Shown: in pieces, positions 23,887-59,662 of the stretch
Layout of the letters: every line of letters begins with the position of its first letter
How positions within the stretch are numbered: the stretch's first letter is position 1
Source: Sporolactobacillus sp. THM19-2
GTDB lineage: Bacteria > Bacillota > Bacilli > Bacillales > Sporolactobacillaceae
Length of the DNA: 64,000 nucleotides
Direction: 5' to 3'
Assembly: GCF_004153195.1 (NCBI RefSeq)
Contig: NZ_SEMC01000007.1
Coordinates: 1 to 64,000 of the forward strand
Position numbers and translations under genes: made by a program
The notes under the pieces: generated by a model
Seen by the model: only the letters and a program-made list of their open reading frames with translations
Told to the model about the DNA's origin: nothing
The model's database searches: none

Positions 23887-23890
23887 TCAG

Positions 23891-26246: not shown

Positions 26247-26275
26247 ATTATAGCTTCATTGCTCCTGTAAATCAA
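26247..26275 (-). promoter_or_regulatory. sigma-A promoter of the methyltransferase-endonuclease-Vsr cassette
   Basis: On the minus strand TTGATT (26270-26275), 17 bases, TATAAT (26247-26252). Predicted start near 26240, leaving a 36-base leader before the ATG at 26204. This makes the cassette independent of the upstream Z1 operon. Confidence 0.7.
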
Positions 26276-26313
26276 TATTTTTAACGAACAAACGTTTGAT
26301 CATTATTTTAAAA

Positions 26314-26360
26314 GCAGGTAGCATAATCGGAATGTGTCTGCATCCTGTCATGCTCCCTGC
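26314..26360 (-). terminator. hairpin ending the Z1/MutL-like operon
   Basis: GCAGG-AGCAT pairs with ATGCT-CCTGC (one bulged base on each side) around a long loop; on the minus strand it is followed by TTTTAAAAT, on the plus strand by TTATTTACTTTTT. It lies about 200 bases past the nuclease stop and just before the cassette promoter. The remaining gap (26361-26556) shows nothing recognisable. Confidence 0.45.
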
Positions 26361-26556
26361 TTATTTACTTTTTGTAAAAATGATCTTTAATTTCATATCC
26401 AGAAAGATTTTACGACATATCAGCAGGATTTTATGCAATAAACAAGAGAATTGATCGAGTCTCCAAACAGGATTCCGTTTATGACAAAGCCTGACAATTG
26501 CATTATCATGTCGAAAATTTTACAGAAAACAGCCGATTAGCTAATATGATACCGGA

Positions 26557-27501: not shown

Positions 27502-27511
27502 TTTAACTCCC

Positions 27512-29564: not shown

Positions 29565-29575
29565 TAATTATCACC

Positions 29576-30502: not shown

Positions 30503-32494
30503 TCAGGACCCCACCTTTTCTATTTTTTCATTAATGACGGCCTGAATTGAAGGATCATGATTGACCATAAAGATTGTACCATCCAATTTTCCAATAAAAC
30601 CGATTAAAGTAATTTCAGCGACATTAACCACCTGAAATCTTCCTGTTTTTCTGTATGTAATATTACTGTCAACAGGCGATTTGACCATGACTTTCTTAAT
30701 TTCAACAGGAAAACGTGTCCCAATTTCTTCCTCGCCCTCCCATTTATCTCCATTGATACGTTTATTATTTTCTGAATCAACAAGAGTTTCAATATGCAGA
30801 GATTTTACACGGGCAGGAATATCACATTCAAACTTTATAGCCATAACCCCTTCCCCAGACAGATGTGTATCAAGTATATTCAGACTGCCTGACTTAACAG
30901 AGTGAGGTATACTGTTTTTCTTTTTCTCCCTGTCTGACCCGATTCCGGGTAAAAATCCAAATCCTCTCGGGGGAAGAAGTGCTTTTGCAATTGATCTGCT
31001 GAGCGCACTGCTCTTCGGGAGGTCATCAGATCCGGAATCTTTGTTATATTCATTTCTGACAGATTCTGAAACCTTTTTCTGAATTCGCTCTATAATTGTC
31101 TGCTTTTGACCATTAACTGTAATATCTGACCATGATGAATGATCAGCCTTTTCTCCCTGGCGAATGTATTCATCGAGACTGGCAGGTGGATCTGTTTTAC
31201 TTATCACATTAACCGAATTGGGAACGAATAACCCAATAATATAATCATCTGTTGAGGTCTGTTCGATATTACTTGTCCATTTGCTGTCTGTTTCATAGTT
31301 TATTATCATTGCCGGTTTTCTCAGGTAAGCAATTATTGGCTTATTTTTACCATCATTATTCGTTTCCAGATCAAGGTACTCATAAGGTGATTTTTTATTG
31401 TCCGGTATTGTCATTTTAAGAGTTTCTTTGCTAACCTTTATGAATGCAACTTTTCCGGCAGCAGGGTTCTCAAGTGTGCGATAGATTTTTATATCTCTGA
31501 CATTAACCGGAATTTTATTTACCGCTATTTTATTATCAGCAATTGCTGCAATATACAGATTCCTCATGATTGAAAATAAAGGCTCCATACTATCCCTGGT
31601 TACAGGCCGACCACCAACTGAAGGCAACAGGTAATTCCCATATCTGTACCAGGGATTGTCAATTCTTGGAGCATACCACTTCTGCAAAGCAATATTTAAA
31701 TACAATTCCAGATCGTTGTGCCACCATAAACTGTCACTATAATCGTCCCTGCATACGATCAAATCGTTCTTATTGATGTACGGAATGATTATTGTGGTTC
31801 CTGTTTCATCATCAATATATGGATTGACATTCAAATCCTGAAGAATTTCCCGGATCTGTTGTTCATTTGTTACAGGTTGTGTAGAAGATTCGGAATGTTG
31901 TTCGCCCCACCATGCAATTCCCCTCTTTCTGCCAGTTCCATTGTCAGGCAGCAGAGCATCTTCTTTGGACTCATCTTCTACCAGACAGGCAGCCAGCCTT
32001 GATTGATAGTTTCCACTTTCATCTTTAATTCGCGAATAGTAGATAACGAGTCCGCTTCCTGCACGAAAATAAACGGTTTTTCCAAGCCCCCACGACCCGC
32101 CGGCTTCTCTTTTCTCCTGTGGCATACTGATTTCATATACCAGTTTCAGAAGATTGCCATAGTGATCATTTTTTATATAATCCTGATGCAGCGGACCAGT
32201 TAGACCCGTAGTGTTCGTGTCTCGTATTACAATACTTTCCTGCGCAGAATCTTGAAATTTATTATTAAGAGATTCTGTGATTCCCTCAAAATGTCTGGAT
32301 ACCCTGTATTTATTAAATTGTTTTACTGAAATATCATATTTTATAGGCCTTTCACCTTGAGCCGCATCCAGACTGTTCTGTACTGACTCTCTTACCAGAA
32401 GATCCAGCAAGGGAGTGTGACTGTTCTGAATAAGTCTGAGCAGTGAACTCCCTCTTTCGGACATTCTTTCCATCTTAGCTAATTCAATTTTCAT
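30503..32494 (-). CDS. MutL/MORC-like GHKL ATPase
   Basis: A 663-residue protein with an N-terminal GHKL ATP-binding domain. The N-box is RESVQNSLDA with catalytic E36 and N40, the G1 box is IRDTNTTGL (D92) and the G2 lid glycines are GGSWGLGKT (132-140). An S5-like transducer region should follow (about 250-420), and the C-terminal 200 residues are charged and beta-rich. GHKL ATPases of this branch close on DNA like clamps when ATP binds. Bacterial homologues are known next to Z1 helicases and methyltransferases and are viewed as the ancestors of eukaryotic MORC proteins. It lies 17 bases after the Z1 gene. Confidence 0.88.
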   Translation of the reverse strand: MKIELAKMERMSERGSSLLRLIQNSHTPLLDLLVRESVQNSLDAAQGERPIKYDISVKQFNKYRVSRHFEGITESLNNKFQDSAQESIVIRDTNTTGLTGPLHQDYIKNDHYGNLLKLVYEISMPQEKREAGGSWGLGKTVYFRAGSGLVIYYSRIKDESGNYQSRLAACLVEDESKEDALLPDNGTGRKRGIAWWGEQHSESSTQPVTNEQQIREILQDLNVNPYIDDETGTTIIIPYINKNDLIVCRDDYSDSLWWHNDLELYLNIALQKWYAPRIDNPWYRYGNYLLPSVGGRPVTRDSMEPLFSIMRNLYIAAIADNKIAVNKIPVNVRDIKIYRTLENPAAGKVAFIKVSKETLKMTIPDNKKSPYEYLDLETNNDGKNKPIIAYLRKPAMIINYETDSKWTSNIEQTSTDDYIIGLFVPNSVNVISKTDPPASLDEYIRQGEKADHSSWSDITVNGQKQTIIERIQKKVSESVRNEYNKDSGSDDLPKSSALSRSIAKALLPPRGFGFLPGIGSDREKKKNSIPHSVKSGSLNILDTHLSGEGVMAIKFECDIPARVKSLHIETLVDSENNKRINGDKWEGEEEIGTRFPVEIKKVMVKSPVDSNITYRKTGRFQVVNVAEITLIGFIGKLDGTIFMVNHDPSIQAVINEKIEKVGS

Positions 32495-32511
32495 GCTCCA
32501 CCGCTCCCTGG

Positions 32512-40491: not shown

Positions 40492-40530
40492 TTTGCATTT
40501 AAAAAGCACCCTGATTAGAGGGCGCTAAAA
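40492..40530 (-). terminator. terminator of the Fic/Doc gene; copy 2 of a duplicated element
   Basis: Same 39 bases as 35554-35592 except one base in the loop. On the minus strand the stem GCGCCCT/AGGGTGC begins right at the Fic stop codon and is followed by five T residues. Confidence 0.8.
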
Positions 40531-40923
40531 GATCTGCTTAACGTTGACTTTTAAGAAGTTTGCTATATCGTTGATTGAAGTGATTTTTTTATTTGCTGTC
40601 AGCATTGTATACTCATACAATTCCATTGGATCTAACATTAACTCAAATCCATTAACATCCAACAAAGTAAGTGCACATAAGACACCTGTTCTTTTGTTGC
40701 CGTCACTAAAATATTGATTGTCAGTAAATGCTTTCAGATAATATGCAGCTTTATCAAATATAGTTGGGTATCTATCGACTCCATACACCGGATAATAAGG
40801 AACTTCCGCAACATATTCAATCAATCCCGGAGAAGTTTCTCCTTCAATACCGCCATACATTTTTAAAGCATACCGATGAAAATTTCTTATGTCATTAGCA
40901 GTTATATGAATACATTCACTCAT
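40525..40923 (-). CDS. Fic/Doc-family (death-on-curing) toxin-like protein
   Basis: A 132-residue protein with the Doc fold signature late in the first half: NQYFSDGNKRTGVLCAL (from N69). Fic/Doc enzymes transfer AMP, phosphate or similar groups to proteins such as EF-Tu, using the histidine of HxFx(D/N)xNKR. Here that position is glutamine (Q70), while F72, D74, N76, K77 and R78 are kept. It may therefore be catalytically impaired or belong to a divergent branch. The ATG follows the stop of a 39-codon gene by 2 bases. The stop lies in the terminator stem. Confidence 0.85.
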   Translation of the reverse strand: MSECIHITANDIRNFHRYALKMYGGIEGETSPGLIEYVAEVPYYPVYGVDRYPTIFDKAAYYLKAFTDNQYFSDGNKRTGVLCALTLLDVNGFELMLDPMELYEYTMLTANKKITSINDIANFLKVNVKQIF

Positions 40924-41372: not shown

Positions 41373-42938
41373 CTATTGTTCAGCCCCGCCGGCGGTGAGT
41401 TTTTTCAGCATTTTCCTTGTCTTGGCTTCGTTGTTTACGTCTGTGAGGCAGACGAGATAATCACCGGGTAAAATTCTCGTATCCCCTTTCGGAATCAATT
41501 CGCTTCCCTCCCGCTTTATCGCAATGAGCAGACAATTTTTCGGAATCGCTAACGCTTTTAAAAGCTTATTCTCGGCCGGCGCTCCGTATTGAACGACCAA
41601 TTCGATGGTAATCTTTTTATTGCTGCAATCACTTTTGAGCGTGTTCTTTTTATCGGCAAGCTGGCTTTCCATCAAAGAATCATAAATTGGCTTGCTTTTT
41701 AACAAATCCGCCACGATATACGCGATTATGGAAACAACCGTGAGCGACAACATTTGCGTAAAAGAGCCGGACATTTCTACGAGTAAAATAACACCGGTGA
41801 CTGGTGCCCGGACAATGGCCGTAAAAAAGCCGGCCATAGCAAGAACAACAAAATTGAAAAACAAATTTGCATCAAACCCCAAATAATGAACAGCGATATT
41901 CCCGAAAATGGCCCCGATAGTGGCGCCCATGATCAGGAGCGGGAAAAAGATGCCTCCCGGCGCTCCGGACCCGAAGCTAATCATCGAGAAAATAAATTTA
42001 ACGATAAGAATGACGAATAAAAAGGAAATGGCGGCATTTGGCTGCAGCTCGCCGGTTATAATATTTCCGCCTCCAAGCGCTAATGGGAAAAAACAGCCTA
42101 TGATTCCGGCGAGAAGGAACGGAACCATCGGCCTTGTTTTTAAACGTAACCATTTGGCATTTTTATAAAGCTGCTGCGTTTTTAACAGGATAAAATTATA
42201 AAAAGCACCGCAAACCCCAAGAACGACACCAAGAATCAGCAGCAGCCAGTAGCCGCTTAGCGGAACATTGTTTGTCACTTGAAAATGAAAGACAGGCTCC
42301 ATTCCAAAGAGTAAATTTGTCATCCAATCACTGACAACGGCCGCAGACATCACAGAAAGTAAAATTGTGGGAGAAAAATATTTAAAAATTTCTTCCATTG
42401 TAAACATCGTACCTGCCAATGGAGCGTTAAAAGCTGCTGCCAGCCCGGCACTTGCCCCGCTGGCAATAAGTATTTTTTTCTCCGTCCGCGATCCCGCATA
42501 TTTATCGCCGATGCCTTGTGCCACACAGGCGCCCAATTGGATGGAAGGACCTTCACGTCCCAGTGACAGTCCCGCTGACATGGAAACAACTCCGCCAAAA
42601 AATTTGCTAATGAGCGTACGGAACCAGTTGTAGTGAAAATACCCCATCATTACGCCTTTTACTTGCGGAATGCCGCTACCGCTGATCATCGGAAATTTAG
42701 AGATAAGCATCCCGGTAACGTATCCGGCTGCCCCGAGCAGAAGCAGGGCAATCGGCAGGAAGGCAACATGGCTGCTTACAAAATCAGATACCTGTAATGA
42801 AAAGGATTCCGCCTTGATGAGAGAAAAACGGTATGCTGCAACGATCATCCCGGCTAACAAGCCGACCACGATGCTTTTTAATAAAATTGGCAGTTTCTTC
42901 GATTCGCGATTGATAAGGGCACGATAATTGTTATCCAT
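41373..42938 (-). CDS. ClC-family chloride/proton transporter with RCK_C tail
   Basis: A 521-residue membrane protein. The three ClC selectivity motifs are present: GSGIPQ, GREGPSIQLG with the gating glutamate, and GSGAPGGIFFP; the rest is a set of about 14 to 18 hydrophobic helices. Residues about 440-515 form an RCK_C/TrkA_C-type regulatory domain. ClC proteins exchange chloride for protons or act as chloride channels, used for acid resistance and membrane balance. It stands between the toxin locus and the second defence block and is not obviously part of either. Confidence 0.92.
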   Translation of the reverse strand: MDNNYRALINRESKKLPILLKSIVVGLLAGMIVAAYRFSLIKAESFSLQVSDFVSSHVAFLPIALLLLGAAGYVTGMLISKFPMISGSGIPQVKGVMMGYFHYNWFRTLISKFFGGVVSMSAGLSLGREGPSIQLGACVAQGIGDKYAGSRTEKKILIASGASAGLAAAFNAPLAGTMFTMEEIFKYFSPTILLSVMSAAVVSDWMTNLLFGMEPVFHFQVTNNVPLSGYWLLLILGVVLGVCGAFYNFILLKTQQLYKNAKWLRLKTRPMVPFLLAGIIGCFFPLALGGGNIITGELQPNAAISFLFVILIVKFIFSMISFGSGAPGGIFFPLLIMGATIGAIFGNIAVHYLGFDANLFFNFVVLAMAGFFTAIVRAPVTGVILLVEMSGSFTQMLSLTVVSIIAYIVADLLKSKPIYDSLMESQLADKKNTLKSDCSNKKITIELVVQYGAPAENKLLKALAIPKNCLLIAIKREGSELIPKGDTRILPGDYLVCLTDVNNEAKTRKMLKKLTAGGAEQ

Positions 42939-42990: not shown

Positions 42991-44670
42991 TTACTTTACT
43001 GAATTGTATTTATTTTTATCAAAGCCAAAAGCCAGATAATCATCACAGTTTAAATCTCGGACAAATGGAGATATTTTTAATGGATTCTTGCTTTGGTAAA
43101 GAAGCCATACCTTCTTCTTTGCACGAGTAATTGCAACATATAAAATTCTTTTTTCCTGATCTAAGACAGAATCTAAATCTTTTAAATAAGACGGATCATC
43201 ATCTCTGCCCTTACCATAGTATTGATTTAATTGTTTTATACGATTTTGATCCGGATAATGATCATGATCAAAATCGAGTACAAAGACAAAATCAAATTCA
43301 AGTCCCTTAATACTGAATGGATCTGAAAAAACTATTGGCTTCTTGTAATGAGAGAATGAAAATCTTTTGCCATATTGAGAGACTGAAATCAATGAATAAG
43401 TCTTCCCAAGAAAATTTTTAATTGAATTTCGACCTAAAAGCTCATTACTAGACAATCGGTGAACAATTACGATAGACGACTGTGGCTCCCTTTCGAGTAT
43501 CTCAGCAATTGTTTTGATTAAAAATTGAAGCAACTTTGTATTGTCTTTACAACATCTGATTTCCGGAAGCTCACCATTTTGATCACTGTCAACAAATTGA
43601 TTCACATTTGATGTTGTTCCATCAGAAAACTTCAACTCGCTGGCCAACCTTACTATCTGCTTTGTCGAACGAAAATTTCGTTTCAGTGTTCTATTCCTAT
43701 GTCCCTGAATATCAATTCCAAGATCTTTGTAAGATAATGGAGATCTCATATAGATCCTTTGCCGGCTATCCCCTGAAAGGGTTAAACTTTTTGTGGTAAG
43801 CAAAGACAGAGTTTTTAATTGCATAGGTGAGAAATCCTGAATCTCATCTGCAAACACATAATCAAATTTTTCTGTATCATCAACTTCATTAATGTGTTGC
43901 AATAGTAAAAGTGCGTAATCTTCCGGATCAAGCATGTGTGATTTCTCATGAATTTGTTTATTATATTCTTGAAATAATTTAAAGACAGCCACTCGCTGAT
44001 CTCTTGCCAATCTTGGGGCATTGCCTCTCCCAGTGCGTTTTACTTCAAGATAATCCTTCAAGTTTACAATACCGTTAGCTTTCATCCATAGAAACTCATC
44101 GAGTAAAAACTGAACGTCCTGTGTTGAATAAAGTTTCTTCGTATATAATGGAAAATTATCACAGACAGCAATAACTTTAGCTTTCAAATTGTGCTGTGCT
44201 TTTTCGAGTCCGTCAAATGTCGGCTGGAACTTTCTTAATTCATTGAAACCCATATCTTTAAGTAAATTCCATGCGAGTTGATGATAAGTCTCAATAACCG
44301 GCGTAGTGGATCCTTTGCTAATTAAATCATTGTACTTAGCAGAACTTTTTAATCGCTTAACTGCATCTTCAATTAATGTCTGATTGTACGTCACAAATAG
44401 AATTCTTGATTTATGATTCTCAGCCATATCACGGATTAATTTATATAGCAAAGTAATACTTTTCCCACTACCTGCTTCACCATTGATTAACATTTGCGTT
44501 TCAATCTGGTTAATCACAGATAATTGCTCATTCGTTGGTTCGATATGTGGAAAAAGATGACTATAATCGAAATAATCTTGCCAGGCCATAGCTGCTCTTT
44601 TGAAAAAGTTTAATGATCTAGTAAATACAACGTCAGACTTTTTATCAGGCTCTTTAGATGTTAAGTTCAT
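42991..44670 (-). CDS. UvrD-like superfamily 1 helicase, last gene of the McrBC/helicase cluster
   Basis: A protein of about 559 residues with a full SF1A motor. The Q-motif region PTNEQLSVINQIETQ precedes Walker A LINGEAGSGKSITLL, Walker B is FADEIQDFSP, motif IV contains RQRIYMRSPLSYKD, and motif VI is RILYVAITRAKKKVW. No nuclease domain is attached. I chose the ATG at 44670 (AAAGGCAGGT upstream) over a GTG at 44694; it overlaps the AddB-like gene by 17 bases. As part of that cluster it probably unwinds DNA ends made by McrBC or supplies a second motor to the AddAB-like pair. Confidence 0.85.
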   Translation of the reverse strand: MNLTSKEPDKKSDVVFTRSLNFFKRAAMAWQDYFDYSHLFPHIEPTNEQLSVINQIETQMLINGEAGSGKSITLLYKLIRDMAENHKSRILFVTYNQTLIEDAVKRLKSSAKYNDLISKGSTTPVIETYHQLAWNLLKDMGFNELRKFQPTFDGLEKAQHNLKAKVIAVCDNFPLYTKKLYSTQDVQFLLDEFLWMKANGIVNLKDYLEVKRTGRGNAPRLARDQRVAVFKLFQEYNKQIHEKSHMLDPEDYALLLLQHINEVDDTEKFDYVFADEIQDFSPMQLKTLSLLTTKSLTLSGDSRQRIYMRSPLSYKDLGIDIQGHRNRTLKRNFRSTKQIVRLASELKFSDGTTSNVNQFVDSDQNGELPEIRCCKDNTKLLQFLIKTIAEILEREPQSSIVIVHRLSSNELLGRNSIKNFLGKTYSLISVSQYGKRFSFSHYKKPIVFSDPFSIKGLEFDFVFVLDFDHDHYPDQNRIKQLNQYYGKGRDDDPSYLKDLDSVLDQEKRILYVAITRAKKKVWLLYQSKNPLKISPFVRDLNCDDYLAFGFDKNKYNSVK

Positions 44671-47224
44671 CAACGGGGTACCTGCCTTTATCACAGATTA
44701 ATAAAAATGGGCACATTTTACAATGGGGGCCCGGAGTAGCATCAACGGATTCTCCATGAATATAATTTTCTTTCAGATCATGTAATGCATCATCATCCTT
44801 CAATGTATTCTTCTTATAACGATACTTTATTTTCCATCGTTTTGTTGGTAAATATTGGCTCCTCAACCTTTGAATATACGCTAAAGATCGAGGATATTGT
44901 ATTGAATCAAAGGTCTTATACTCTCTAAGTGGCTGATAGAATTGTGTATCCACCAAATTTTTCTTTAACTCATCTGTCCATTGTGGGAATAGCGGATATA
45001 GGTATTCCTCTGCCCCCTCCTTTCCTCCACTAATCTGACTGATCAGCTTACTTATAATTGAGAATAGCAAACGTTGATGAAAGTCACTTGTGTATACAGG
45101 ATGATAATTCAACACGGAAGTATAAAAAAACTTTTTCGGGCAAAAATCATAGTCAATCCAGCTAACATCTGGAATCTTTCCGGATAATTCTTCAGTGCTT
45201 GGAAGCGACAACAACGTCTCCGGATTATTATTAGCAACCCATTGTAAATACCCAATTTTTTGTTCAGTAAGATCAAATTCAATTGTACCGAAGTAAATAT
45301 AATTGATAAGCTTTAGAAAAGACGCAGGATATTCTGTTGAATCAGAATTATCTGCCCAGCTAATTGTCAGGCTTCCCCTTCTGAAGGCAAGCAGATAGTA
45401 TAAATAATATCGAGACATCTCCGGGACAAGTTCACGTGACTGTTGATCAACATTCAGGCAGTGAAGAAGAAGCATTTTTTCACTTACGCTTAGACGTGTC
45501 TCATTGAGAATACATTGCTTAATCCAGTTATAATTTCTTAGATATTCGGGTAAAACATATTTCCTTTCAGGGAATAATCTACTTGTCATATCCGATAAAT
45601 GAATGGATTTTTGTGAGAGTGCTACCCCAGAAACCTGATTAAAACGACTAATCACTACCGATTTCGAATGATCCTGGTAACCCAGTATCAATTTAAATAA
45701 TTCTGCAAGTTCTTTCTTTGTATAGTACCAGTTATCATCTACTGGATACTGTTTAAAAGCCCTAATAAATTCATTTATAATTGGATCTGAAGATGTTCCA
45801 TGTTTCTGCTGAATTTCCATAAAAGTAATAAGCCGCTTTATATAATGACTACAGTGCACAACATCAGAATCCCCTAAACTAAATTGTCTGAGACAGGTTT
45901 GAAGTTTTTCTGATAGTTTGATTAGCTGGTCCAGAGTTATTTCATATCTCTGCTTCTCAAAATATGGAAATGCGTGAAACGGATTCGTTAAGTATTCTTT
46001 GATATAATCGTGATCTGCTCCAGCTCCAGATAACTTATCAAATTCACTTTCACAATCCCGGAACCGTAAAAGCACATGAAGCCTATGTACAATTTCCTCC
46101 AGTGTTTCAACCCCAGTCATGTAATCCCTTAAATCGGTAAGAAGTCCAGTGGCAGATGTTCCTGAAACCTTTCCATCATTGATCCATCCAGATGAGATCA
46201 TCTTGACAAATGTCGAATAATTTAGGAATAATTTATTCTCACTCTTCTTAACCTCGAGAATATGAGAGAAAAATTGTCCTTGAATATATTCTGATAGCGG
46301 AATTCTTTCCTCATATTGATTCATTAGAGGTAAGAACGGCCTTATATGATTAGTATCAAGCGAAATCAATGATTGATGATGTCCTAATGAATAATCTAAA
46401 GCGGCCTTTTCACTACGAAAATGCATCAGGTGGAGTCCTTCATCCGCTTGATCTTGAGACATTCCTTCTGTATCCTTCTTGTTTTCAACAAAATTGATTA
46501 ATTTTTCCCCGGATTGAGTTCCACTTGTTCCAGGGATATCTTTTCCTCGCAAAACATTTCGAGTATCAAACACCTGATCATAAATACGGCTCCATCCCTC
46601 GTAGAATTTCTTAAACGTGTTATTATAAGGAACGAAGAATGTGACGGGGAAAGAGAGAGAATCCAGTTTATAAAAAAAGTGAAGCCGTGCTGCATCAATG
46701 AAATCCATCTGATAGACAGCAATTCGATGAAACGTCCGCCCTAATTTTTGAAAAATCGATGTTGCTGTTAATTGTTTCATATTAGATTGATAATCTAATA
46801 CGATTTGGTTTTCTTTTAGATGCTTCATTATATCCGAAAATATCTTCATCTCTTGCATATCTTGATCTTCAGTATGAATATCCATCAGATTTAGATTTAC
46901 TAAATAGCGGACACTACTGATTAATTCATTATCCAGTTCATCAATCATCTTATTTTTTACCGGACTATCTGGCAACGAGATCAGTAATCGATGAATTATT
47001 GATTCAAGTTCAATTTGGGTTCGCCGACTATTCCACACGGGAAACAGTCTTTTTTGTAGTTGTTCATAGGATAGGATCAGTGCCCTATTATGTGATTGCT
47101 TGTCCAAATAATCTGCGAGTGAATTTGCAGCAGCAATGTGTAATGTATCTTCATCCATTTGGATTACTGTATCAAAGAATTTCGTTGCATTCTCATATGT
47201 CCTGATGTGAAACAAATTCTTCAC
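44654..47224 (-). CDS. AddB/RexB-like iron-sulfur protein without visible nuclease core
   Basis: An 856-residue protein. The end matches AddB-type chains: a first cysteine in DYDFCPKKFFY (C695), then C835-x2-C838-x5-C844 in HCKMCPFLLIC, the same spacing as the 4Fe-4S cluster that clamps the AddB nuclease. Between C695 and C835 there are only about 140 residues, less than half the AddB distance, and no D...D/E-x-K triad is visible. The N-terminal 600 residues look like the inactivated helicase part of AddB (no Walker A). It overlaps the AddA-like gene by 32 bases. Likely a DNA-end or strand-binding scaffold. Confidence 0.7.
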   Translation of the reverse strand: MKNLFHIRTYENATKFFDTVIQMDEDTLHIAAANSLADYLDKQSHNRALILSYEQLQKRLFPVWNSRRTQIELESIIHRLLISLPDSPVKNKMIDELDNELISSVRYLVNLNLMDIHTEDQDMQEMKIFSDIMKHLKENQIVLDYQSNMKQLTATSIFQKLGRTFHRIAVYQMDFIDAARLHFFYKLDSLSFPVTFFVPYNNTFKKFYEGWSRIYDQVFDTRNVLRGKDIPGTSGTQSGEKLINFVENKKDTEGMSQDQADEGLHLMHFRSEKAALDYSLGHHQSLISLDTNHIRPFLPLMNQYEERIPLSEYIQGQFFSHILEVKKSENKLFLNYSTFVKMISSGWINDGKVSGTSATGLLTDLRDYMTGVETLEEIVHRLHVLLRFRDCESEFDKLSGAGADHDYIKEYLTNPFHAFPYFEKQRYEITLDQLIKLSEKLQTCLRQFSLGDSDVVHCSHYIKRLITFMEIQQKHGTSSDPIINEFIRAFKQYPVDDNWYYTKKELAELFKLILGYQDHSKSVVISRFNQVSGVALSQKSIHLSDMTSRLFPERKYVLPEYLRNYNWIKQCILNETRLSVSEKMLLLHCLNVDQQSRELVPEMSRYYLYYLLAFRRGSLTISWADNSDSTEYPASFLKLINYIYFGTIEFDLTEQKIGYLQWVANNNPETLLSLPSTEELSGKIPDVSWIDYDFCPKKFFYTSVLNYHPVYTSDFHQRLLFSIISKLISQISGGKEGAEEYLYPLFPQWTDELKKNLVDTQFYQPLREYKTFDSIQYPRSLAYIQRLRSQYLPTKRWKIKYRYKKNTLKDDDALHDLKENYIHGESVDATPGPHCKMCPFLLICDKGRYPVDELNI

Positions 47225-49778
47225 CTCTAAGATCGATCAATTGACTCCAACTTTTTGGACGAACTTCCAGAAGTTGTTGATCCGGTGCATTAGCAAAAAC
47301 TTTATCCTTTGCACGAGTAAGTGCTACATAGAGCAAACGTGTTTCCTCTCCAATAATTTCTGATTTCTCAGAAGGCAAAAGATGATTAAAAATATCATTT
47401 TTAATATTTATCGGCTCATCTGATCCATTGAACAGTGTAGCTGAAAAGCCAAGTTGCCAGTAGTTTTCAGATTTTTTCAGGATAAATTGACTGCGACGGT
47501 AATCGAGAAATGAATGATTCATAATCGGTAAAATTACATTTTCGTATTCCTCACCTTTTGACTGATGAACCGTCATTACTTTTATCCGCTGTGTTTGCTT
47601 TTTTAACGTTGCTGGCTTCTCATGATTGTTTGTTAATATATTAATACTCAGGAAATGTTCGAGATCCACCAGTGTGGCCGCCTGATCACTCAAATTTTCA
47701 TTAATCAACACAATCAATTTTTCTAAATCTAATGTATATTCTCGAAATCTGGCGAATGCTTCACGCTGCTGTTCCTCTTTATTTCGTTCCGGAAACTGCT
47801 GTCGCATTTTTAAATAGATTCTTTGTCGGTAATTTTCAGTTGGATTAACAGAACGTATATATTTAATCAGCGTGGGCATCACTGGAAATATTCGAACTTG
47901 ATGAACAAGTTGACGAAATTTCTGAGCTTCAGGTTGCTGCCCTATTAAGCCCTTCAAATATTGCTTTTTACTTGAAAAATTATGAAATATATCATTCAAT
48001 TTTAATCTTGCACTACCATACGAGCTCATATGCAGAGCATAGCGAGTCGGCCAGATCATTGGATTTATCAGTGCCTTAATTAAAATATAAAACTCCCGGA
48101 CTGCCAAAGTTCTAAAAAAATTCCCCTTTCGAATTCCTTCACAATAAAAACCAAGCGACTGAATCTTATGGATCATCTCATCAACGTCGTGATTTGTCCG
48201 GACAAGAACAGCAGTATCATTTTTTCTTTCAATTCTTGCGAGAATCTTTTCGAGATTCACATCATTCAATGGAACCCTGGTCAAGCCTTTACTAAGCTCA
48301 TTTCTTACAGGACGAAGTTTATCTGATGGCTGATACCTAAAACTGCTGATTTGCTTCCCCCATGAGGTGAACATAGAGTCAAATGCATTCAGTAAAGTTT
48401 TAGTTGAGCGATAATTCAATGTCAGCGTATATTCCCTTAATTTTTCACCTTGGGCCTCCAATTTTTCCTTTAGTTGATAAAATGCTGTGTAATCTGCTCC
48501 CCGGAAACGATAGATGCTCTGTTTAATATCTCCAACAACAAATAATCGAACATGGAGTTTCTCAACTAACCGACTCACAAAGTCCACCTGAGCCTCATCT
48601 GTATCCTGGAATTCATCGATCATTAACAGTTTGATTTCAGGAAAATAATTACCCATCTGTTCACTAATCTTTATGTTTGCTAATTCAGCAATCAGATCAT
48701 TTACCTCAAGGTAGCCGTTCTCTTTTTTATATTTGTCCAGATCAGATTCTACATTCACAAGCAAATATTTTAAAAGGCCACATAAATTATCTGCATCATT
48801 ACCAAGCTCCATATTAGTAAGATCCCGCAGAGTTAATGACTTGTTTTTGATGGTCTGTTGAACTTTCTCAAACAATTTAACGATTTCATATTGAGGTACA
48901 TGCTTGAACGGTTTAAATTCCTTCATGTGCTCTTTTGCATAATTATCAATATATTTTTCACATAATAATTTTCGCTTGTATCTGCAACTAACCACTTCAG
49001 GCTTTTTTTGAAAATGCAGGAAATGAGCAACAGGCTTAATAAAATTTGCTGCAAAAGAATGGATCGTTGAAATTTGCATCGATTCAGCATCCTCAGCCCA
49101 CTTCAAAAATTTTTTGTTGCGGGTCAGAAAAAAATAATGATTAATCTTATTTAGGAGACGTTCACGAATTGTCCGTGCCGCTTCATTGGTAAATGTAATC
49201 AAACTTGCGTCAGAGAATTTCTTAAGCTTCTTTGTGTTCTTCAGAAATAACAATCGTTCAATCATCGTTGTTGTTTTTCCGGTGCCTGCTCCAGCATGCA
49301 GCAGAATATGTACACGTTGCGGTGCATGAATGACTTCATATTGTTGATGATTGAAATCCGGACATTGCTCCTTAAGATATTCGTATAATTGATTGTCACT
49401 AATGATGCCATCATAAAAACAAATTGACTTACCGGAGAAAATTGAGTTCAAACGGATTTCGTGCCATTCAAGTAAGCCATAATTCCTTGCCTGAATCCAA
49501 TCTGGATTTGTTTCGTAATTTTCTAGACTATCCATCGTAAATAAATAGACACGAATACCGTTATGAAGATGATACTTGATCATTTGATTCAGTTGTTCAG
49601 GCAGTTCATCATAAAAAAGTAACAAGGAGTATTGTGGAATCAGTTGCAAATTGTGTTCCTCCATAACGAAAAATTCAAGCATCAAATAAAAAGCATATTG
49701 GCTCTTTAAACAGATTTTTTCTTCATGAAATATTTGATTTCCCCGCTTTATCTCCAAAATAGGATAAAGCAATTTCAT
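47193..49778 (-). CDS. AddA/UvrD-like superfamily 1 helicase
   Basis: An 861-residue protein. About 145 N-terminal residues of unknown fold precede the motor: DFNHQQYEVIHAPQR (Q motif), HAGAGTGKTTTMIERLL (Walker A, about 162-168), LLMIDEFQDTDEAQVDFVS (Walker B, near 389), GDIKQSIYRFRGAD, and the late LLYVALTRAKDKV (motif VI). It resembles the motor half of AddA but lacks the C-terminal nuclease domain. The open frame overlaps mcrC by 56 bases; a later start is possible (for example a TTG after GGAGG near 49655) but would cut the N-terminal domain. With the following AddB-like gene it should form a heterodimeric helicase. Confidence 0.85.
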   Translation of the reverse strand: MKLLYPILEIKRGNQIFHEEKICLKSQYAFYLMLEFFVMEEHNLQLIPQYSLLLFYDELPEQLNQMIKYHLHNGIRVYLFTMDSLENYETNPDWIQARNYGLLEWHEIRLNSIFSGKSICFYDGIISDNQLYEYLKEQCPDFNHQQYEVIHAPQRVHILLHAGAGTGKTTTMIERLLFLKNTKKLKKFSDASLITFTNEAARTIRERLLNKINHYFFLTRNKKFLKWAEDAESMQISTIHSFAANFIKPVAHFLHFQKKPEVVSCRYKRKLLCEKYIDNYAKEHMKEFKPFKHVPQYEIVKLFEKVQQTIKNKSLTLRDLTNMELGNDADNLCGLLKYLLVNVESDLDKYKKENGYLEVNDLIAELANIKISEQMGNYFPEIKLLMIDEFQDTDEAQVDFVSRLVEKLHVRLFVVGDIKQSIYRFRGADYTAFYQLKEKLEAQGEKLREYTLTLNYRSTKTLLNAFDSMFTSWGKQISSFRYQPSDKLRPVRNELSKGLTRVPLNDVNLEKILARIERKNDTAVLVRTNHDVDEMIHKIQSLGFYCEGIRKGNFFRTLAVREFYILIKALINPMIWPTRYALHMSSYGSARLKLNDIFHNFSSKKQYLKGLIGQQPEAQKFRQLVHQVRIFPVMPTLIKYIRSVNPTENYRQRIYLKMRQQFPERNKEEQQREAFARFREYTLDLEKLIVLINENLSDQAATLVDLEHFLSINILTNNHEKPATLKKQTQRIKVMTVHQSKGEEYENVILPIMNHSFLDYRRSQFILKKSENYWQLGFSATLFNGSDEPINIKNDIFNHLLPSEKSEIIGEETRLLYVALTRAKDKVFANAPDQQLLEVRPKSWSQLIDLRGEEFVSHQDI

Positions 49779-50793
49779 CTAACTGTGCCGCAATTTCAGG
49801 AAAGGGATGATTCAAATCCAGCGTCTTTACGCTGATCTTGTTGCCACCCATCTGATAATCACAGTCTGGTGTGACAGCCTCTTCAGTTTTTGCATACAGA
49901 AGCATACCTGCCACGTTGCCGGTTCTTCCAATATCCTGATTTTTAACATAAGTAAAGATTTGATACAGGTTGTTCGAATGAAGCGTCCGATGATTATACT
50001 GAACTTGCATCGTATGTGAATAGTACTTGGTATCTATAATAAGTATTTTATTGCCATGTCTTAATGTAATATCTGTCTGCATGATCGGTAGAAAATCAGT
50101 AACATCATTGTCTACATTCCAGGAGACTTGGGAAGCGGCTGCTCGTAAGTCGGGGTGGTGGTATCGGTAGTATTCCAGGACAAATTTCTCATATAGCCGC
50201 GACATATGTTGTTCATCTAAGAAAGTAGCCATTTTATATTTGCCCTTTTCATCCGAAAGCAGCAAGCCTTCAAGGACAAAATAGCATATGTTCAGTAACA
50301 TTTTATAATTTTGATTGTTTCTCTGATACCGAAGCCTGCTCCATTGAATGCAGGATGTTTCAATGCAATTAACTTCTCCGAAAAAGAGCATTACTTTTTT
50401 TAGTGCCACCTTGTGTTCTGCACTCACCGATTTTTGCCGCAGCAGATTGATTGCTGTGGTTTTAAGTATCTGATTAAATATATTGTTTTCTGAAAGCTCA
50501 TCGTATTCACAGCTTAGTTTTTGTAATCTTTTTTGTTTATTATAGATTGTTTCGCGTATATTTAACTTCCCTCGCATTTTCGAGAGATCGGCACATTTAG
50601 AGACATACTCTCGGTGCAGACCTTGTTTTAACTGCTGTGCAATTCCCTTAGCGAGTATTGCAGCGAAAAGATCTTGTATATTTTCAAATTCTTCCGCAGC
50701 AACTTCATCGTAATTTGATTGTTTTAGTACCTGAAAGGCATAGGTAAGCATGTAATAAATATTCTTAATGACAATGCCCTTGTCTTTAATCAT
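49723..50793 (-). CDS. mcrC: McrC nuclease subunit
   Basis: A 356-residue partner of McrB. It begins IKDKGIVIKNIYYMLTYAFQ, typical of McrC, and carries the PD-(D/E)XK core in MQTDITLRHGNKILIIDTKYY-like sequence at about residues 245-265 (D, then D-x-K). McrC docks on the McrB ring, stimulates its GTPase and cuts DNA between two modified sites. The ATG (50791-50793) overlaps the mcrB stop as ATGA, with AAGGTG 7 bases upstream. The upstream GTG-like extension to 50823 is not needed. Confidence 0.92.
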   Translation of the reverse strand: MIKDKGIVIKNIYYMLTYAFQVLKQSNYDEVAAEEFENIQDLFAAILAKGIAQQLKQGLHREYVSKCADLSKMRGKLNIRETIYNKQKRLQKLSCEYDELSENNIFNQILKTTAINLLRQKSVSAEHKVALKKVMLFFGEVNCIETSCIQWSRLRYQRNNQNYKMLLNICYFVLEGLLLSDEKGKYKMATFLDEQHMSRLYEKFVLEYYRYHHPDLRAAASQVSWNVDNDVTDFLPIMQTDITLRHGNKILIIDTKYYSHTMQVQYNHRTLHSNNLYQIFTYVKNQDIGRTGNVAGMLLYAKTEEAVTPDCDYQMGGNKISVKTLDLNHPFPEIAAQLDEIALSYFGDKAGKSNIS

Positions 50794-52580
50794 TGAACAA
50801 CACCTTGGAGAATACTCTTCCACTGCTCCAATTTCGCAGGCTCGTCAAACCAGTACTCGCTAAGCATCGGAATAATATCATAGTCTACGACTTCCTTCAT
50901 CCACTCATCTGTGCAATCCTGCTCTCCACAGAAATAACTATGACCAATACAAAAGCCTTTACCCAGCGAACTATCTGCGGCGATCTTCTGATTTAATCTC
51001 TTGATTTGCTCAATCAAAGCATCGAATTTATCATTCTTGAAACCGGCCTGATAGGCTTTAAAGCCTTTTGAATCGAAACCTGGCTCCATTTCAAAGAAAC
51101 TAAATCGTCTGCGCAATGCATAATCAATCATTGCCAGACTACGATCTGCAGTATTCATCATACCGACAATGTACAAATTTTTTGGAACGGCGAATGACAT
51201 GCCATTATAAGCAAGAGTGGCCTCCATACCACGATAATCCTTTTCTATCAACAAGAGCAGTTCGCCAAAAATTTTGCTCAAATTCCCACGGTTTATCTCG
51301 TCAATAATAAAGAAGAATGGTTTTTCAGGCATGTTGGCCGCCTTTTGACAGAAACGATAAAAAATGCCGTATTGCAATTTGAATTCTGCACCTTGAGGTT
51401 TATAACCCATAATAAAATCTTCATAAGAGTAATTCTGATGAAATTGGACAAATTCAATGTGACTGTCATCCTTTTTCCCCATCATCGCATAGGCAAGGCG
51501 CCTTGCCGCATACGTTTTACCAACGCCTGGCGCTCCTTGCAGAATAATATTCTTCTTGTGTTTCAGAAGAGAGACTAAGGAATCAAATTGCTGACCCGAC
51601 ATATATACTTCTTTCAAAAAATCTTTTTTTGTGTAGCTTTCAAAATTTTCATCTGAGTTAACAACAGGGTTCCTTTCACGGATTAAATCCATAATGACAT
51701 CGTATTCACTCTTCGTTAATTTAAAAAGGCTGCCCTGCTTACTTTTAAAATACTCCATCCCTCTAAGTTCGAAACAATTCTTCAAGGTTGCGTAATCGAC
51801 AGGTGTATTCAGGCTTTCAACTTTTTTAAAATATAACTTCTTACCATCATTCTCCCGTGTGATTTGCGCAAGTGCGACAATCTGTTTGACAGGATTCGAT
51901 ACATATCCAATCACAGGATCACCTGCTCTTGCGTCTAAGAAATTCTGAAATATATGGCGCTTATTCCCATTCCCATTGTAAAGCGTATAACTCTGGCCCT
52001 TTCCAATTTCTATGTTGGAAAAGCTCCAAATTTTCGGATTGGCATTTAACCACCAATAACCATGTTCATTCATGTACAAAGGTATATTGGATAGGTCGCA
52101 CTGATCCAGTGCCTTACTTAGTTCATCACGAAGTTTCCAGATGTAAATGCCCTCTGTACCTTTATCTGCGTACTTACCCAGATAGAGAATTGGCCACAAT
52201 CTGGAATTATTTGTGTCTTTAGTCATTTCAGGGCATCCGGTTTCGTCAGCGACACGCCTGGCAAGTGAGGATGATCCGCTGTTATAGAAATTTGGTGTCC
52301 CTCCGTATTTTATAGAAAGTTGTTTGCAAGTGGCCTCTCCACCGCAATCTTTTATACGTTTCATAATGGCAAGGCTATCCGGTGTAAATACTTTTTGATT
52401 TTTGAGCAGGGTTAACCATTGCTCAGTTGAAATATTTGGATTGTAATCCTTTGGAAACCATTCCGATGTTTTTTTATTGTTTAACATGGCAACTTGCTCC
52501 CATTTATCCTCTGTCATGTTTTGAATTGATCTGTAGTGGTTTTGTTCCCCTGATTCTTCCACCAGAAAAACAGTGAGCAC
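50790..52580 (-). CDS. mcrB: McrB GTPase with EVE-type modified-base reader domain
   Basis: A 596-residue AAA+ protein. The C-terminal motor has Walker A LQGAPGVGKTYAARRLAYAM (about 346-365), Walker B FFIIDEINRGNLSKIFGE and the McrB-specific GTP motif MNTADRS. Residues about 165-300 form an EVE/PUA-like domain (EHGYWWLNANPKIW; ARAGDPVIGYVSNPVKQIV), a fold that flips out and binds 5-methyl or 5-hydroxymethyl cytosine in other McrB-type proteins. The first 150 residues are a charged helical domain not recognised. The GTG at 52580 lacks a clear ribosome site; an ATG at 52514 is an alternative. Confidence 0.93.
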   Translation of the reverse strand: MLTVFLVEESGEQNHYRSIQNMTEDKWEQVAMLNNKKTSEWFPKDYNPNISTEQWLTLLKNQKVFTPDSLAIMKRIKDCGGEATCKQLSIKYGGTPNFYNSGSSSLARRVADETGCPEMTKDTNNSRLWPILYLGKYADKGTEGIYIWKLRDELSKALDQCDLSNIPLYMNEHGYWWLNANPKIWSFSNIEIGKGQSYTLYNGNGNKRHIFQNFLDARAGDPVIGYVSNPVKQIVALAQITRENDGKKLYFKKVESLNTPVDYATLKNCFELRGMEYFKSKQGSLFKLTKSEYDVIMDLIRERNPVVNSDENFESYTKKDFLKEVYMSGQQFDSLVSLLKHKKNIILQGAPGVGKTYAARRLAYAMMGKKDDSHIEFVQFHQNYSYEDFIMGYKPQGAEFKLQYGIFYRFCQKAANMPEKPFFFIIDEINRGNLSKIFGELLLLIEKDYRGMEATLAYNGMSFAVPKNLYIVGMMNTADRSLAMIDYALRRRFSFFEMEPGFDSKGFKAYQAGFKNDKFDALIEQIKRLNQKIAADSSLGKGFCIGHSYFCGEQDCTDEWMKEVVDYDIIPMLSEYWFDEPAKLEQWKSILQGVVQ

Positions 52581-52600: not shown

Positions 52601-55867
<3,267 letters not shown>

Positions 55868-56202: not shown

Positions 56203-57471
56203 TTATTTGACTGTCTGTTTCGTTGGCACCCGAATCTCACCAGACATCAGTTTGGGGAGGAGAGTGTCCCTTAATTTAATTAGATGCGAAACTTCCTTAT
56301 TTTTTTCAACTAGCAATTTTAAATAACCTTTCATAATACCGTTATACAAAATTAGTATATCTTCTGAGGGAACAATCACCTTTAGCGATCCTAATATCTT
56401 TTGATTAAGATTTTTAAAAACAGTACCATTTGAAGAATTATTCAATATTTTTATGGAATTCCTTAGATAATAAAAAACATATATTTTCATGTTCTCCTCT
56501 GTTCTGACTCTGATTGTAAATCCTGAATATACAACATTACTATTTACTTCAATATTGAGCATTGTTTCTCCAGGTTTTGCACTTCTAACAATTACGGTAT
56601 CAAATTTTTCTAATTTATATTCCTCAATTTGTTTTTGTGGTAAATCCACAACATCTAATTTGGATTGATTAACAATGAGAGATCCATCAAAATTTCTAAC
56701 ATTAATCACTTTGGTTGGTATACCCTTTTGATTCCTGATGTAATTTACACCGTTCCTCATATTAGAAAGTGTTTTAAGATCATAAACTTTCCACCCTTTA
56801 GGAATCATCCCTAGTTCACTCTCAACCATCTCACCGCCGCTTGATTTGTATGGGTTACCGTTTTTATCTGGAAATTCAAAATCTACAAACCAGTGTTTGA
56901 AGATTGCCTGAGCCATGGCTTCTAAATTGTGATTTATTCTAGTATTTATATCGATTTGTTTATCTATAGAAGATAATATCTTAACAGTTAAATCTTGTTG
57001 TTCTCTTATAGGAATTCTTAATTTCATGTCACCATAAGTCTTTGAGTTAATATTCTTTCTTGTACTTCCAGTTGAAAATGATGATACCCAGTCTCTGTAA
57101 TCATCAGAAAGAGTGTAATACTTCATATACATTGGATTAATTTTATTTGGATCTAAGCTAAATTTAATCAAATATCCTGCGTAAACTAGTTTGCCATCAT
57201 TGGGATTATAATAATAACTTCTACCTGTGCTATTGCCAGTTCTCGCAAAAACTATATCATTTTCTTTTAATACATATTTCTGCGCTTTAGGATCATCTAC
57301 CGATTTTAAATCCGCTTTGTTTAATGTTCCATCATCATTTATATCAGTGATTCTTAAATATGTTAACAAATTCTTTGAATATTTAACAGCTGATGCAGGA
57401 ATACCATAATGACCTTTTCCATCAATAGTTAAATCGGCTAATTTTACAAGTCGAAAACTATCACAACTCAT
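56203..57471 (-). CDS. hsdS: type I restriction specificity subunit S
   Basis: A protein of about 422 residues that reads the DNA sequence for the HsdM/HsdR complex. It has two target-recognition domains (about 1-140 and 215-370) separated by the central spacer [20 protein letters not shown] followed by [16 protein letters not shown], and a distal conserved block [17 protein letters not shown]. Each domain reads one half of a bipartite site, which I cannot predict. The ATG at 57471 has GAGGGGGA 6 bases upstream and overlaps hsdM by 11 bases. The two recognition domains are far AT-richer than hsdM and hsdR, which suggests domain exchange by recombination. Confidence 0.95.
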
Positions 57472-58984
57472 ACCCAATCCCCCTCAGGTTCTTCCGGATT
57501 TCGTCTTCCAGTTGATGGGATTCTGAGAACAGTTCACTGAGTTCACTGGTCAGTTTGTCCATCTTTTCCTCGAAGGGTATGCCGTCATCTTTTTCTTCTT
57601 CAATCCCAACATAGCGGCCGGGCGTCAGAATATAATCATTTTCTTTGACGTCATCGAGGGTCGCCGATTTGCAGAAACCTTTGACGTCTTCATATTTTCC
57701 GTCCCGGTTGCGCCACTGATGATAGGTGCCGGCAATTTTATCAATGTCCTCCTGACTGAGTTCCCGGTGACGACGGTCAATCATGTTGCCAAGATGGCGG
57801 GCATCAAGGAAAAGAAATTCGTGTGAGCGATCCCGCTGGCCGGCGTTGCCTTTTTTATTCCGATTGAGAATCCAGAGGGAAACCGGGATGCTGACGGAAT
57901 AGAACAGCTTATCCGGCATGGCAACGATCGCGTCGACCAGATCGGCTTCCAGCAGATTCTTTCGGATTTCGCCTTCATTGGATGTGTTCGTGCTGAGTGA
58001 GCCATTGGCCAGGACCACGCCAGCCGCGCCACGTGGCGACAGATGATAAATAATGTGCTCCAGCCAGGCATAGTTGGCATTCCCATGCGGCGGAATCCCG
58101 TAAGCCCAGCGAACGTCTTCAGTCAGCTGATCGCCGCCCCAGTCACTGATATTGAATGGCGGATTGGCCAGAACAAAATCGGCCTTGAGATTTTTATGAA
58201 GATCGTTGTGGAACGTGTCCGCCTGATAGGGACCGATATCTCCGGACAAGCCGCGGATCGCCAGGTTCATTTTGCAGATCTTCCAGGTGGTTGCGTTTAG
58301 TTCCTGTCCGTAGATGGCCAGATCGGCAAGACGCCCTTTGTGCCTTGCAACAAACTTACTGCTCTGGACAAACATTCCGCCGGACCCGCAGCATGGATCG
58401 TACACCCGTCCTCTGTAAGGTTCGATCATCGAGACCAGCGTCTGAACGACACCGGTCGGCGTATAGAATTCACCACCGCCTTTGCCTTCCGCTTCAGCGA
58501 ACTTGCCCAGAAAATATTCATAAACGCGGCCGAGCAGATCCTGTTCACCGGTGGTATAAAGCTTGATGGTCGAAACCAGATCAACCAGTTCGCCGAGTCG
58601 TCGCTTATCAATTTCCTGGCGCGCATATCGCTTTTCCAGCACATTTTTCAGACTGTCGTTATCCTTCTCAATCAGGATCATCGCGTCGTCAATGATCTGT
58701 CCGATTTTCTCACTTCTCGCATGGTCACGGATATGCTCCCAGCGGGCTTCCTTTGGCACCCAGAAAATGTTATACGCCAGGTATTCATCGCGCTCTTCTT
58801 CAAACCCTGCCCCTTCGGCAACCAGTTCCTGATATTTCATTTCGAATTTATCCGATATGTACTTTAAAAAGATCAGGCCGAGTACAACATGCTTGTATTC
58901 GCTGGCATCCATGCTGCCGCGCAGCTTGTCCGCCGCTTTCCACAATTTTTCTTCAAATCCGATATTTGCTGTCGATTCCGCCAT
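57461..58984 (-). CDS. hsdM: type I restriction-modification methyltransferase subunit M
   Basis: A 507-residue N6-adenine methyltransferase. SAM motif I is [15 protein letters not shown] (about 192-206), the catalytic motif IV is [11 protein letters not shown] (about 272-282), and the N-terminal helical HsdM_N domain opens with [21 protein letters not shown]. It modifies the host copies of the site read by HsdS and forms the core for HsdR. The start is 12 bases after the regulator gene, so the whole type I operon is likely transcribed from the regulator promoter. Confidence 0.96.
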
Positions 58985-58996: not shown

Positions 58997-59662
58997 TCAG
59001 AAATTGTAATCATCAAGCACTTCAAACAATGCGGCTTCGAATTCTTCCTGTTCCGGTCCGGTTGTAATATCACCGGGCAGAACGTTCAGGTAATGGGCCA
59101 GACCCTGAATGGTTTTTTGTAAAATGATTTCTGATCCGGCCTTCTCCAGCAAGGCCATCATAATCCGGTAGGTATCCATGTAGGGATGTTTATCCACCTG
59201 TTCCAGGGAGGCTTTGAATCGCTCAATCAGTTGCTCCTTCTCAATACTTCGTTCAATCCTGTTGATTTCTTCCCTGTCATAGACTGGGACAGACTCCAGC
59301 TTCTGTGCACTGCGACTGAGTACCTGCTCATGGCGTTCAATGATCGGCTTCAGTTCTGCCTTCAGCTTTTCCTTCTGAATCTCAAGTTTATCAATTTCAG
59401 TCAGCTCTTTTGAGAAGTAGTCCCGATTGATATGAAAAAGCTGCTCCAGAGTTGGCAAATACTTCTTCGGGATATTCTGTTTGCCTTTCAGCCACAGATT
59501 AATATTTTGTTTCTTAATCCCCAGCCGGTCGGCCAGTTCAAGCTGCTGCATGTTGTAGAGCCCAAGAACATACTCCAAACCGATCAATTCATCACCACCC
59601 GTTCGGGCATTACCAATTGTCTCGGTCAATAATATTTTAAATCTGCTTATTGACTGAGTCAA
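58997..59662 (-). CDS. helix-turn-helix regulator at the head of the type I operon
   Basis: A protein of up to 221 residues. An HTH domain is visible at about residues 35-75 (MQQLELADRLGIKKQNINLWLKG), followed by a long coiled-coil (about 85-165) and a C-terminal helical part rich in acidic residues. It probably controls the restriction operon. The translation start is uncertain: the TTG at 59662 lies inside a palindrome that is also the -35 box, so translation more likely begins at TTG 59629 (near the transcript start) or at a later TTG after GGTGGTG. The coiled coil indicates a dimer. Confidence 0.75.
   Translation of the reverse strand: MTQSISRFKILLTETIGNARTGGDELIGLEYVLGLYNMQQLELADRLGIKKQNINLWLKGKQNIPKKYLPTLEQLFHINRDYFSKELTEIDKLEIQKEKLKAELKPIIERHEQVLSRSAQKLESVPVYDREEINRIERSIEKEQLIERFKASLEQVDKHPYMDTYRIMMALLEKAGSEIILQKTIQGLAHYLNVLPGDITTGPEQEEFEAALFEVLDDYNF

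Follow-up and report, generated by a model that had tools for sequence, protein, structure and literature searches.

The three helicase-type genes that follow an mcrBC pair in Sporolactobacillus sp. THM19-2 belong to a gene cassette that recurs elsewhere apart from McrBC. The cassette was analysed in a stretch of 64,000 nucleotides of contig NZ_SEMC01000007.1, which is called the window in the following. Five long open reading frames (ORFs) occupy positions 42991-52580 on the minus strand and encode, in the order of transcription, McrB, McrC, an AddA-like helicase of superfamily 1 (SF1), an AddB-like protein and a second SF1 helicase; the last three genes are designated addA', addB' and sf1. 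Because each ORF comprises 366-861 residues and has homologues elsewhere, they are not chance products. The head-to-tail cluster reported in a first-pass annotation of the window is thus confirmed by ORFs and domain matches. Judged from sequence comparison, the unit conserved in defence islands is an AddA-AddB(-SF1) cassette that is separate from McrBC. The five-gene set of the window looks like a local pairing of McrBC, which stands behind a type I system, with this three-gene cassette.

In total, 26 loci including the window were read; one candidate (G713, E 7.9e-4) was left out of the reading. The AddA-like gene adjoins the AddB-like gene in 25 of the 26 loci, and the exception (G102, E 3.1e-4), which has no AddA-like neighbour, was discarded as spurious. 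McrBC directly precedes the cassette in one of the 25 loci, namely the window itself; the other 24 have no adjacent McrBC. McrC was detected by means of a Pfam profile in the order sample and elsewhere by phmmer with the window's McrB and McrC. Among the 397 genomes of the order, McrC (PF10117) occurs in 64 and the AddB-like protein in 21, the two samples being taken as identical on the grounds that handles and listing order agree. Both proteins are present in three genomes compared to 3.4 expected (Fisher p = 1.0), and in two compared to 3.2 expected if the window's own genome is omitted (p = 0.75). In G046, they are located on different contigs. The first-pass annotation had proposed a dedicated five-gene system, in which McrBC would cut modified DNA and the three helicase-type proteins would degrade it from the new ends, and had named solitary homologues of the last three genes as evidence to the contrary. 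This is what was found, since homologues of the trio mostly lie away from McrBC and the co-occurrence is at chance level. A conserved five-gene system was therefore rejected on gene order and co-occurrence counts. In its favour, the five ORFs of the window follow one another without interruption and in the same direction. In Anoxybacillus mongoliensis (G143), moreover, the contig and strand of the cassette also carry a further mcrBC pair, which lies about 9 kb upstream and is separated from the cassette by a DNA methylase-like gene, a transposase and a 1637-residue helicase-nuclease. However, mcrC and addA' probably do not overlap but are separated by 73 bases, and McrBC directly follows hsdR here, which is a known kind of pairing. 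The proposal is thus very improbable; it is largely refuted by gene order and could survive only as a recent local association.

AddB-like matches were found in six of 147 near relatives, 21 of 397 genomes of the order and four of 398 genomes of the phylum, counts that all include the window's own genome and, for order and phylum, also weak matches. Among 72,556 plasmid records, two match the AddB-like protein of a relative, and one is found with the window's own protein as query. A search of genome contigs yielded five AddB-like loci, of which that of Neobacillus paridis was new to the set; a first search with one protein as query had returned 15 stretches and no relative. A phage-borne origin was considered and discarded, as there was no match in phage records and no confirmed relative in two scans of viral contigs, which denotes absence at that sensitivity only. 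The sf1 gene comes next to the pair in 16 of the 25 loci. For 15 loci, the pairwise distances of the three proteins correlate with Spearman coefficients of 0.74, 0.66 and 0.70, which were reached by 0, 1 and 0 of 5000 permutations, respectively. Both helicases retain their ATPase motifs. The window belongs to a clade of eight loci, which further comprises A. mongoliensis (G143), A. voinovskiensis (G218), Geobacillus icigianus (G036), Rossellomorea arthrocnemi (G330), N. paridis, G154 and G726. At L044 (6113-13536), the AddA- and AddB-like genes are of one subfamily and the sf1 gene behind them is of that found in the window, a possible case of reshuffling within the trio.

The AddA-like protein keeps the SF1 helicase motifs GAGTGKT, DEFQD and YVALTRA (Walker A, Walker B and motif VI). 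Its family profile (A4) matches the housekeeping AddA of the same genome with E 1.8e-32 (hhalign), and the best match of the profile in the PDB is AddA (3u44_A). The absence of a nuclease domain stated in the first-pass annotation could be corroborated: 39 residues without an ExK motif follow motif VI in the window protein, compared to 370 residues with LLDYKT in the genome's own AddA, which served as positive control. The distance from motif VI to the C-terminus is 26-50 residues in all 24 measurable AddA-like proteins (25 were tried; L092 was not measurable). Seven AddA-like proteins outside the clade contain an EVKG or EVKA motif in a long N-terminal extension, and Pfam NERD was detected in one of four scanned. 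In the 1223-residue AddA-like protein of L041 (5274-8945), the N-terminal extension harbours two sequences that might be nuclease motifs, LIDDKC and VIEVKG.

As had been anticipated, the pair does not represent the housekeeping AddAB. The AddA-like helicase core is homologous to AddA, which would fit a displaced housekeeping pair, but a different contig carries adjacent full-length genes for AddA (1401 bits, cut-off 708) and AddB (1301 bits, cut-off 904), and this reading is therefore ruled out. The ORFs of the cassette are also shorter: the AddB-like protein has 856 residues and the AddA-like protein at most 861, compared to 1169 and 1247 for the genome's own AddB and AddA.

The AddB-like protein has no match in Pfam, NCBIfam or PADLOC. 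It contains a conserved pattern C...CxxCx5C, whose residues C695, C835, C838 and C844 are invariant in six aligned homologues, and a CxxC-C pattern is also found in further AddB-like homologues. In AddB, C-terminal cysteines of such a pattern hold an iron-sulphur cluster. Our reading of the protein as AddB/RecC-like relies on the position of its gene, on the cysteines and on a fold match, itself a tie, over approximately residues 1-220. In a poor predicted model, residues 1-221 or so resemble SF1, AddB and RecC chains equally well, and the structural alignments mostly fall within residues 1-356. Foldseek returned one match with E<=1e-3, a UvrD chain with a template-modelling (TM) score of about 0.2. 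No hhDxK nuclease motif was found in the last 330 residues of the eight AddB-like proteins of the clade by means of a loose pattern, which was chosen such that the control, IIDYK in the housekeeping AddB, is detected. Of the former designation as AddB-like iron-sulphur protein without visible nuclease core, the lack of a visible core and the four-cysteine pattern hold; the identity with AddB is not established by sequence (hhalign probability 8%). Outside the clade, the loose pattern gives a bare single match between the cysteines of the C-terminal part in six AddB-like proteins (L010, L036, L038, L041, L047 and L050). Further bare single matches lie in the C-terminal part of AddB-like proteins or in AddA extensions (L009, L011, L042, L045 and L046).

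In seven of the eight clade loci, a restriction or defence cluster is located upstream of the cassette and codirectional with it, immediately in five cases and within about 1.4 kb in two. The immediate upstream gene on the same strand encodes McrC in the window, HsdR in G. icigianus and GmrSD in R. arthrocnemi. In both Anoxybacillus loci it encodes a helicase-nuclease of 1637-1643 residues; the one that was scanned has AAA and MTES_1575 domains and matches PADLOC PDC-S37. In N. paridis, the first ORF upstream is YgjP-like, and at a distance of 1.1 kb there are remnants of a type I system, consisting of HsdM_N and a C-terminal HsdR piece (24.6 bits, below the cut-off of 26.8). In G154, a small ORF precedes the cassette and a PglZ/SNF2/helicase cluster lies 1.4 kb upstream. 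A PC4-family gene directly follows sf1 in six of the eight clade loci, the window and G726 being the exceptions.

Beyond the clade, the neighbourhood was assessed with two ORFs of at least 150 residues on each side of 21 loci, excluding the window, L049, L050 and L092. The set comprised 77 proteins after the PC4 gene of L037 had been left out (78 before). The commonest family among the 25 of 71 listed is C5 methylase with seven of the 77 proteins. Of the listed families that are linked to restriction, MutH (4), GmrSD (3), ResIII (3), Mrr (2), MTES_1575 (2), NgoFVII-type (2) and N6 methylase (2) come next; recurrent neighbours further include transposases and DNA polymerase IV. Among 79 control proteins from 15 genomes that carry the AddB-like gene, no restriction or modification family is present in the 20 families with at least two members. 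The more distant members have C5 methylases, ZorA/ZorB-type genes or Dnd genes in their vicinity. ZorA/ZorB-type genes were observed close to AddA/AddB-like pairs in L009 (ZorB, 3.3e-90), L047 (ZorB, 9e-68) and L011 (ZorA, 1.5e-110), where the pair might have an accessory role in a Zorya-like system. In L049 (5305-13554) and L050 (5830-13043), a diverged AddA/AddB-like pair adjoins DndC/DndD-PbeC-type genes; in L049, a separate NERD-like gene stands beside the pair. Together with the N-terminal EVKG/EVKA extensions, this gene gives the impression of an exchangeable nuclease.

The sequence comparison shows the gene content of the cassette, the conserved linkage and correlated divergence of its members, that it is separable from McrBC, that recognisable nuclease motifs are lacking, and that it is sited among restriction genes. 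Tentatively, and with a chance of being correct that we rate as somewhat below even, the region is interpreted as a composite of a type I restriction-modification system, an EVE-McrBC and a separate mobile AddAB/RecBCD-like cassette without recognisable nuclease sites in this clade, which would act on ends made by a neighbouring restriction enzyme. We base this on the ATPase motifs kept by the helicases, on the match of McrC and HsdR to nuclease-family profiles across nearly their full length, and on the apparent lack of a nuclease in the trio. The neighbouring enzyme, here McrBC or HsdR and elsewhere GmrSD, the helicase-nuclease or the PglZ/SNF2 system, would generate double-strand ends in foreign DNA. 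A motor shaped like RecBCD, with the AddA-like protein as RecB, the AddB-like protein as RecC and the SF1 helicase as second motor, would load on these ends and unwind or strip the DNA, such that rejoining, recombination or circularisation of the cut DNA is prevented. In relatives, the PC4-family protein, a single-stranded DNA binder, might assist. Formation of the complex, its loading on ends, the direction of its action and the anti-phage effect are inferred. A broader proposal, which we consider rather unlikely, is that the nuclease-free AddAB-like cassette is a general plug-in behind unrelated restriction systems and turns a cut into processive destruction. The nuclease would have been moved, swapped or dropped across the family, the options being an N-terminal NERD or other PD-(D/E)XK-like domain, a separate NERD-like gene, or none.

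Several findings weigh against the composite with a separate end-acting cassette. The partnership with each upstream nuclease is deduced from position. No restriction gene was recognised upstream in G726, and the genes upstream of the cassette on the Geobacillus zalihae plasmid encode YolD and DNA polymerase IV; in addition, an N-terminal nuclease motif is missing from the AddA-like protein of this plasmid. The nearest ORF upstream of addA' is 73 bases away in the window, 180-370 bases away in five relatives and 888 bases away in G154, so that co-transcription can be no more than presumed. No SF1 homologue was found beside the pair in nine of the 25 loci. The adjacency count is partly circular, as G102 was dropped both for its weak score and for lacking AddA, and the Pfam tallies of neighbours cover 25 of 71 families for the cassette and 25 of 186 for the control. 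With the AddB model (NCBIfam TIGR02773), only the housekeeping AddB (1301 bits) was found in the whole genome, the window gene not reaching E 0.001, and the profile comparison of the AddB-like protein with the genome's own AddB gave the mentioned low probability. The AlphaFold models of the AddB-like protein are poor, with a mean predicted local distance difference test (pLDDT) value of 43 and of 39 for the C-terminal part. Since AddB is not recognised by sequence and the predicted structure is poor, a diverged but active nuclease in this protein is possible.

The main rival is a stand-alone defence, in which the cassette would work without any neighbouring nuclease, for example by a replication block through translocation or by a nuclease too diverged to be recognised, its siting being explained by defence islands. 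The loci of G726 and the G. zalihae plasmid, which have no recognised restriction gene directly upstream, and the high variety of neighbours fit this explanation. It has to accommodate that in seven of the eight clade loci a restriction or defence cluster precedes the cassette in the same orientation, and that no nuclease motif was seen in the window's clade. We regard it as a serious possibility, albeit one to be doubted sooner than accepted. AddAB-type enzymes function in repair, and the core of the AddA-like protein is related to AddA; the cassette could accordingly protect the host as a private RecBCD/AddAB that repairs or clears breaks in self-DNA caused by restriction systems. Given the intact housekeeping AddAB of this genome and the absence of visible nuclease sites in the cassette, this is improbable. 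Defence without visible DNA cleavage does exist, which again speaks for a self-standing function: PbeABCD is described as stopping viral replication while viral DNA stays intact (PMC6459918).

The longest ORFs of the five genes overlap by 34, 56, 32 and 41 bases. An ATG at 50793 reduces the mcrB/mcrC overlap to 4 bases, and an ATG at 44670 that of addB'/sf1 to 17 bases. The 56-base mcrC/addA' overlap requires an ATG at 49778. In an alignment of six AddA-like proteins, the start of four of the five relatives coincides with window codon 39, and that of the fifth lies three residues before it. These N-termini are matched similarly well by a TTG at 49649 (codon 44), which is preceded by GGAGG at a distance of 8 bases and has the better ribosome site; the junction is therefore probably a gap of 73 bases. 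Thus, of the overlaps of 4, 56, 32 and 17 bases given previously, the first and last hold with internal ATG starts and the third stands, whereas the 56-base overlap is probably not real. An addA'/addB' overlap is also seen in relatives, for example 29 bases in L007. A sequence scan gave promoter-like sites (39 versus 43.6 expected) and terminator-like sites (10 versus 13.6 expected) at or below chance.

The minus-strand run extends further upstream than the five genes. The mcrB ORF begins 20 bases after the end of hsdR; hsdS, hsdM and a helix-turn-helix (HTH) gene are located further upstream on the same strand, such that the full run reads HTH-hsdM-hsdS-hsdR-mcrB-mcrC-addA'-addB'-sf1. The run is hence not limited to the five genes, which had been supposed to be expressed as one unit, since the upstream genes run into mcrB. 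Both restriction sets are complete: hsdM, hsdS and hsdR are present according to Pfam, and the type IV set consists of an AAA+ McrB with a modified-base domain and McrC with PF10117.

Table 1. Genes of the minus-strand run that leads into the helicase cassette.
Feature	Position	Strand	Evidence
HTH (Cro/C1-type) protein, probable regulator heading the run	58997..59662	-	HTH_3 5.2e-7, YdaS 1.5e-7
HsdM, type I methyltransferase	57461..58984	-	PF02384 4.6e-108, HsdM_N 1.2e-28
HsdS, type I specificity subunit	56203..57477	-	Methylase_S, two stretches, 5.3e-21
HsdR, type I restriction subunit	52601..55867	-	HSDR_N 2.2e-51, T1RH-like_C 7.7e-110, TIGR00348 608 bits
McrB with EVE (modified-base reader) domain	50790..52580	-	AAA_5 2.9e-22, EVE 1e-7, PRK11331 1.7e-91 (below its cut-off)
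McrC nuclease subunit	49723..50793, ATG start (longest ORF to 50823)	-	PF10117 1.5e-35; NCBIfam PRK09736 385 bits, cut-off 338
AddA-like SF1 helicase without nuclease domain	47193..49649, proposed TTG start (longest ORF to 49778)	-	UvrD-helicase 3.8e-43 (UvrD N and C domains)
AddB-like protein, no Walker A, four conserved cysteines, no visible nuclease motif	44654..47224	-	alignment of six, motif check, N-terminal fold likeness
Second SF1 (UvrD/PcrA-like) helicase	42991..44670, ATG start (longest ORF to 44694)	-	UvrD-helicase 5.4e-21; best PDB match of family profile PcrA 1.7e-28

With AddAB of the Bacillus subtilis type and with RecBCD/AdnAB, the cassette shares the AddA helicase core, the adjacency of AddA- and AddB-like genes and the C-terminal four-cysteine pattern. 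In contrast to AddAB, its AddA-like protein has no C-terminal nuclease domain, and its AddB-like protein has neither Walker A nor a visible nuclease motif and is not matched by the AddB model. It is also smaller and has an extra SF1 helicase gene in 16 of the 25 loci. The best PADLOC matches of both window helicases are the GajB and RTasHel models, in the group of Gabija GajB, NERD+UvrD (PADLOC C3a187) and RTasHel. However, these matches span the generic UvrD core, and no match to GajA (ATPase/TOPRIM) is among the PADLOC families listed for eight window proteins (25 families listed for four of them). McrBC of the E. coli K-12 branch travels with type I systems (Bell et al. 2024, PMC11090510). 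The EVE-McrB and McrC of the window, directly behind hsdR on one strand, resemble this arrangement in gene order, which was compared rather than phylogeny. They differ by the helicase-type genes that follow; the terms "UvrD", "RecB" and "AddAB" do not occur in the text of PMC11090510 as available. CoCoNuT types II and III, as described there, combine McrBC with the UPF1-like SF1 helicase CnuH, and have in common with the window an SF1 helicase encoded beside the McrB/McrC pair. In contrast, the window helicases match UvrD and AddA models, not UPF1-like ones, and are adjacent to McrBC in one of 25 loci.

The trio was not found described in PADLOC 2023. The literature was compared in part (PMC11090510, PMC12948488, PMC13192584, PMC7641849, PMC12407980, PMC10952713, PMC12458937 and PMC6459918). 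A search that left most subscription papers and preprints outside yielded no publication dealing with the cassette or with McrBC joined to an AddAB-like pair. Within this scope, the first-pass statement that no named system has exactly this gene set agrees with our results. The three-gene helicase cassette is apparently undescribed so far, whereas the linkage of hsd and mcrBC is already described (PMC11090510). The gene trio is defined well enough for searching and deletion. Once phage DNA has received a first cut by restriction, its further fate is generally attributed to the housekeeping RecBCD or AddAB, which many phages inhibit. If the end-acting interpretation is true, a dedicated mobile end-processing motor would explain continued degradation of cut DNA when the housekeeping enzyme is blocked, and defence islands would assemble composite systems in which various nucleases are each joined by one common type of motor.

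The window contains a second defence cluster on the minus strand (23434-35271) which looks like an Mza/PDC-M33-type system. It encodes an MzaC-like protein (5.7e-61), a weakly MzaD-like protein and weakly PDC-M33C-like and PDC-M33A-like proteins, together with Vsr, two C5 methylases and a type II restriction enzyme. The trio is followed by a chloride-channel-like gene, identified by eye (41373-42938), beyond which a 132-residue protein is encoded on the minus strand (40525-40923) that is Doc/Fic-like by eye and has a weak match to PADLOC PDC-S23.

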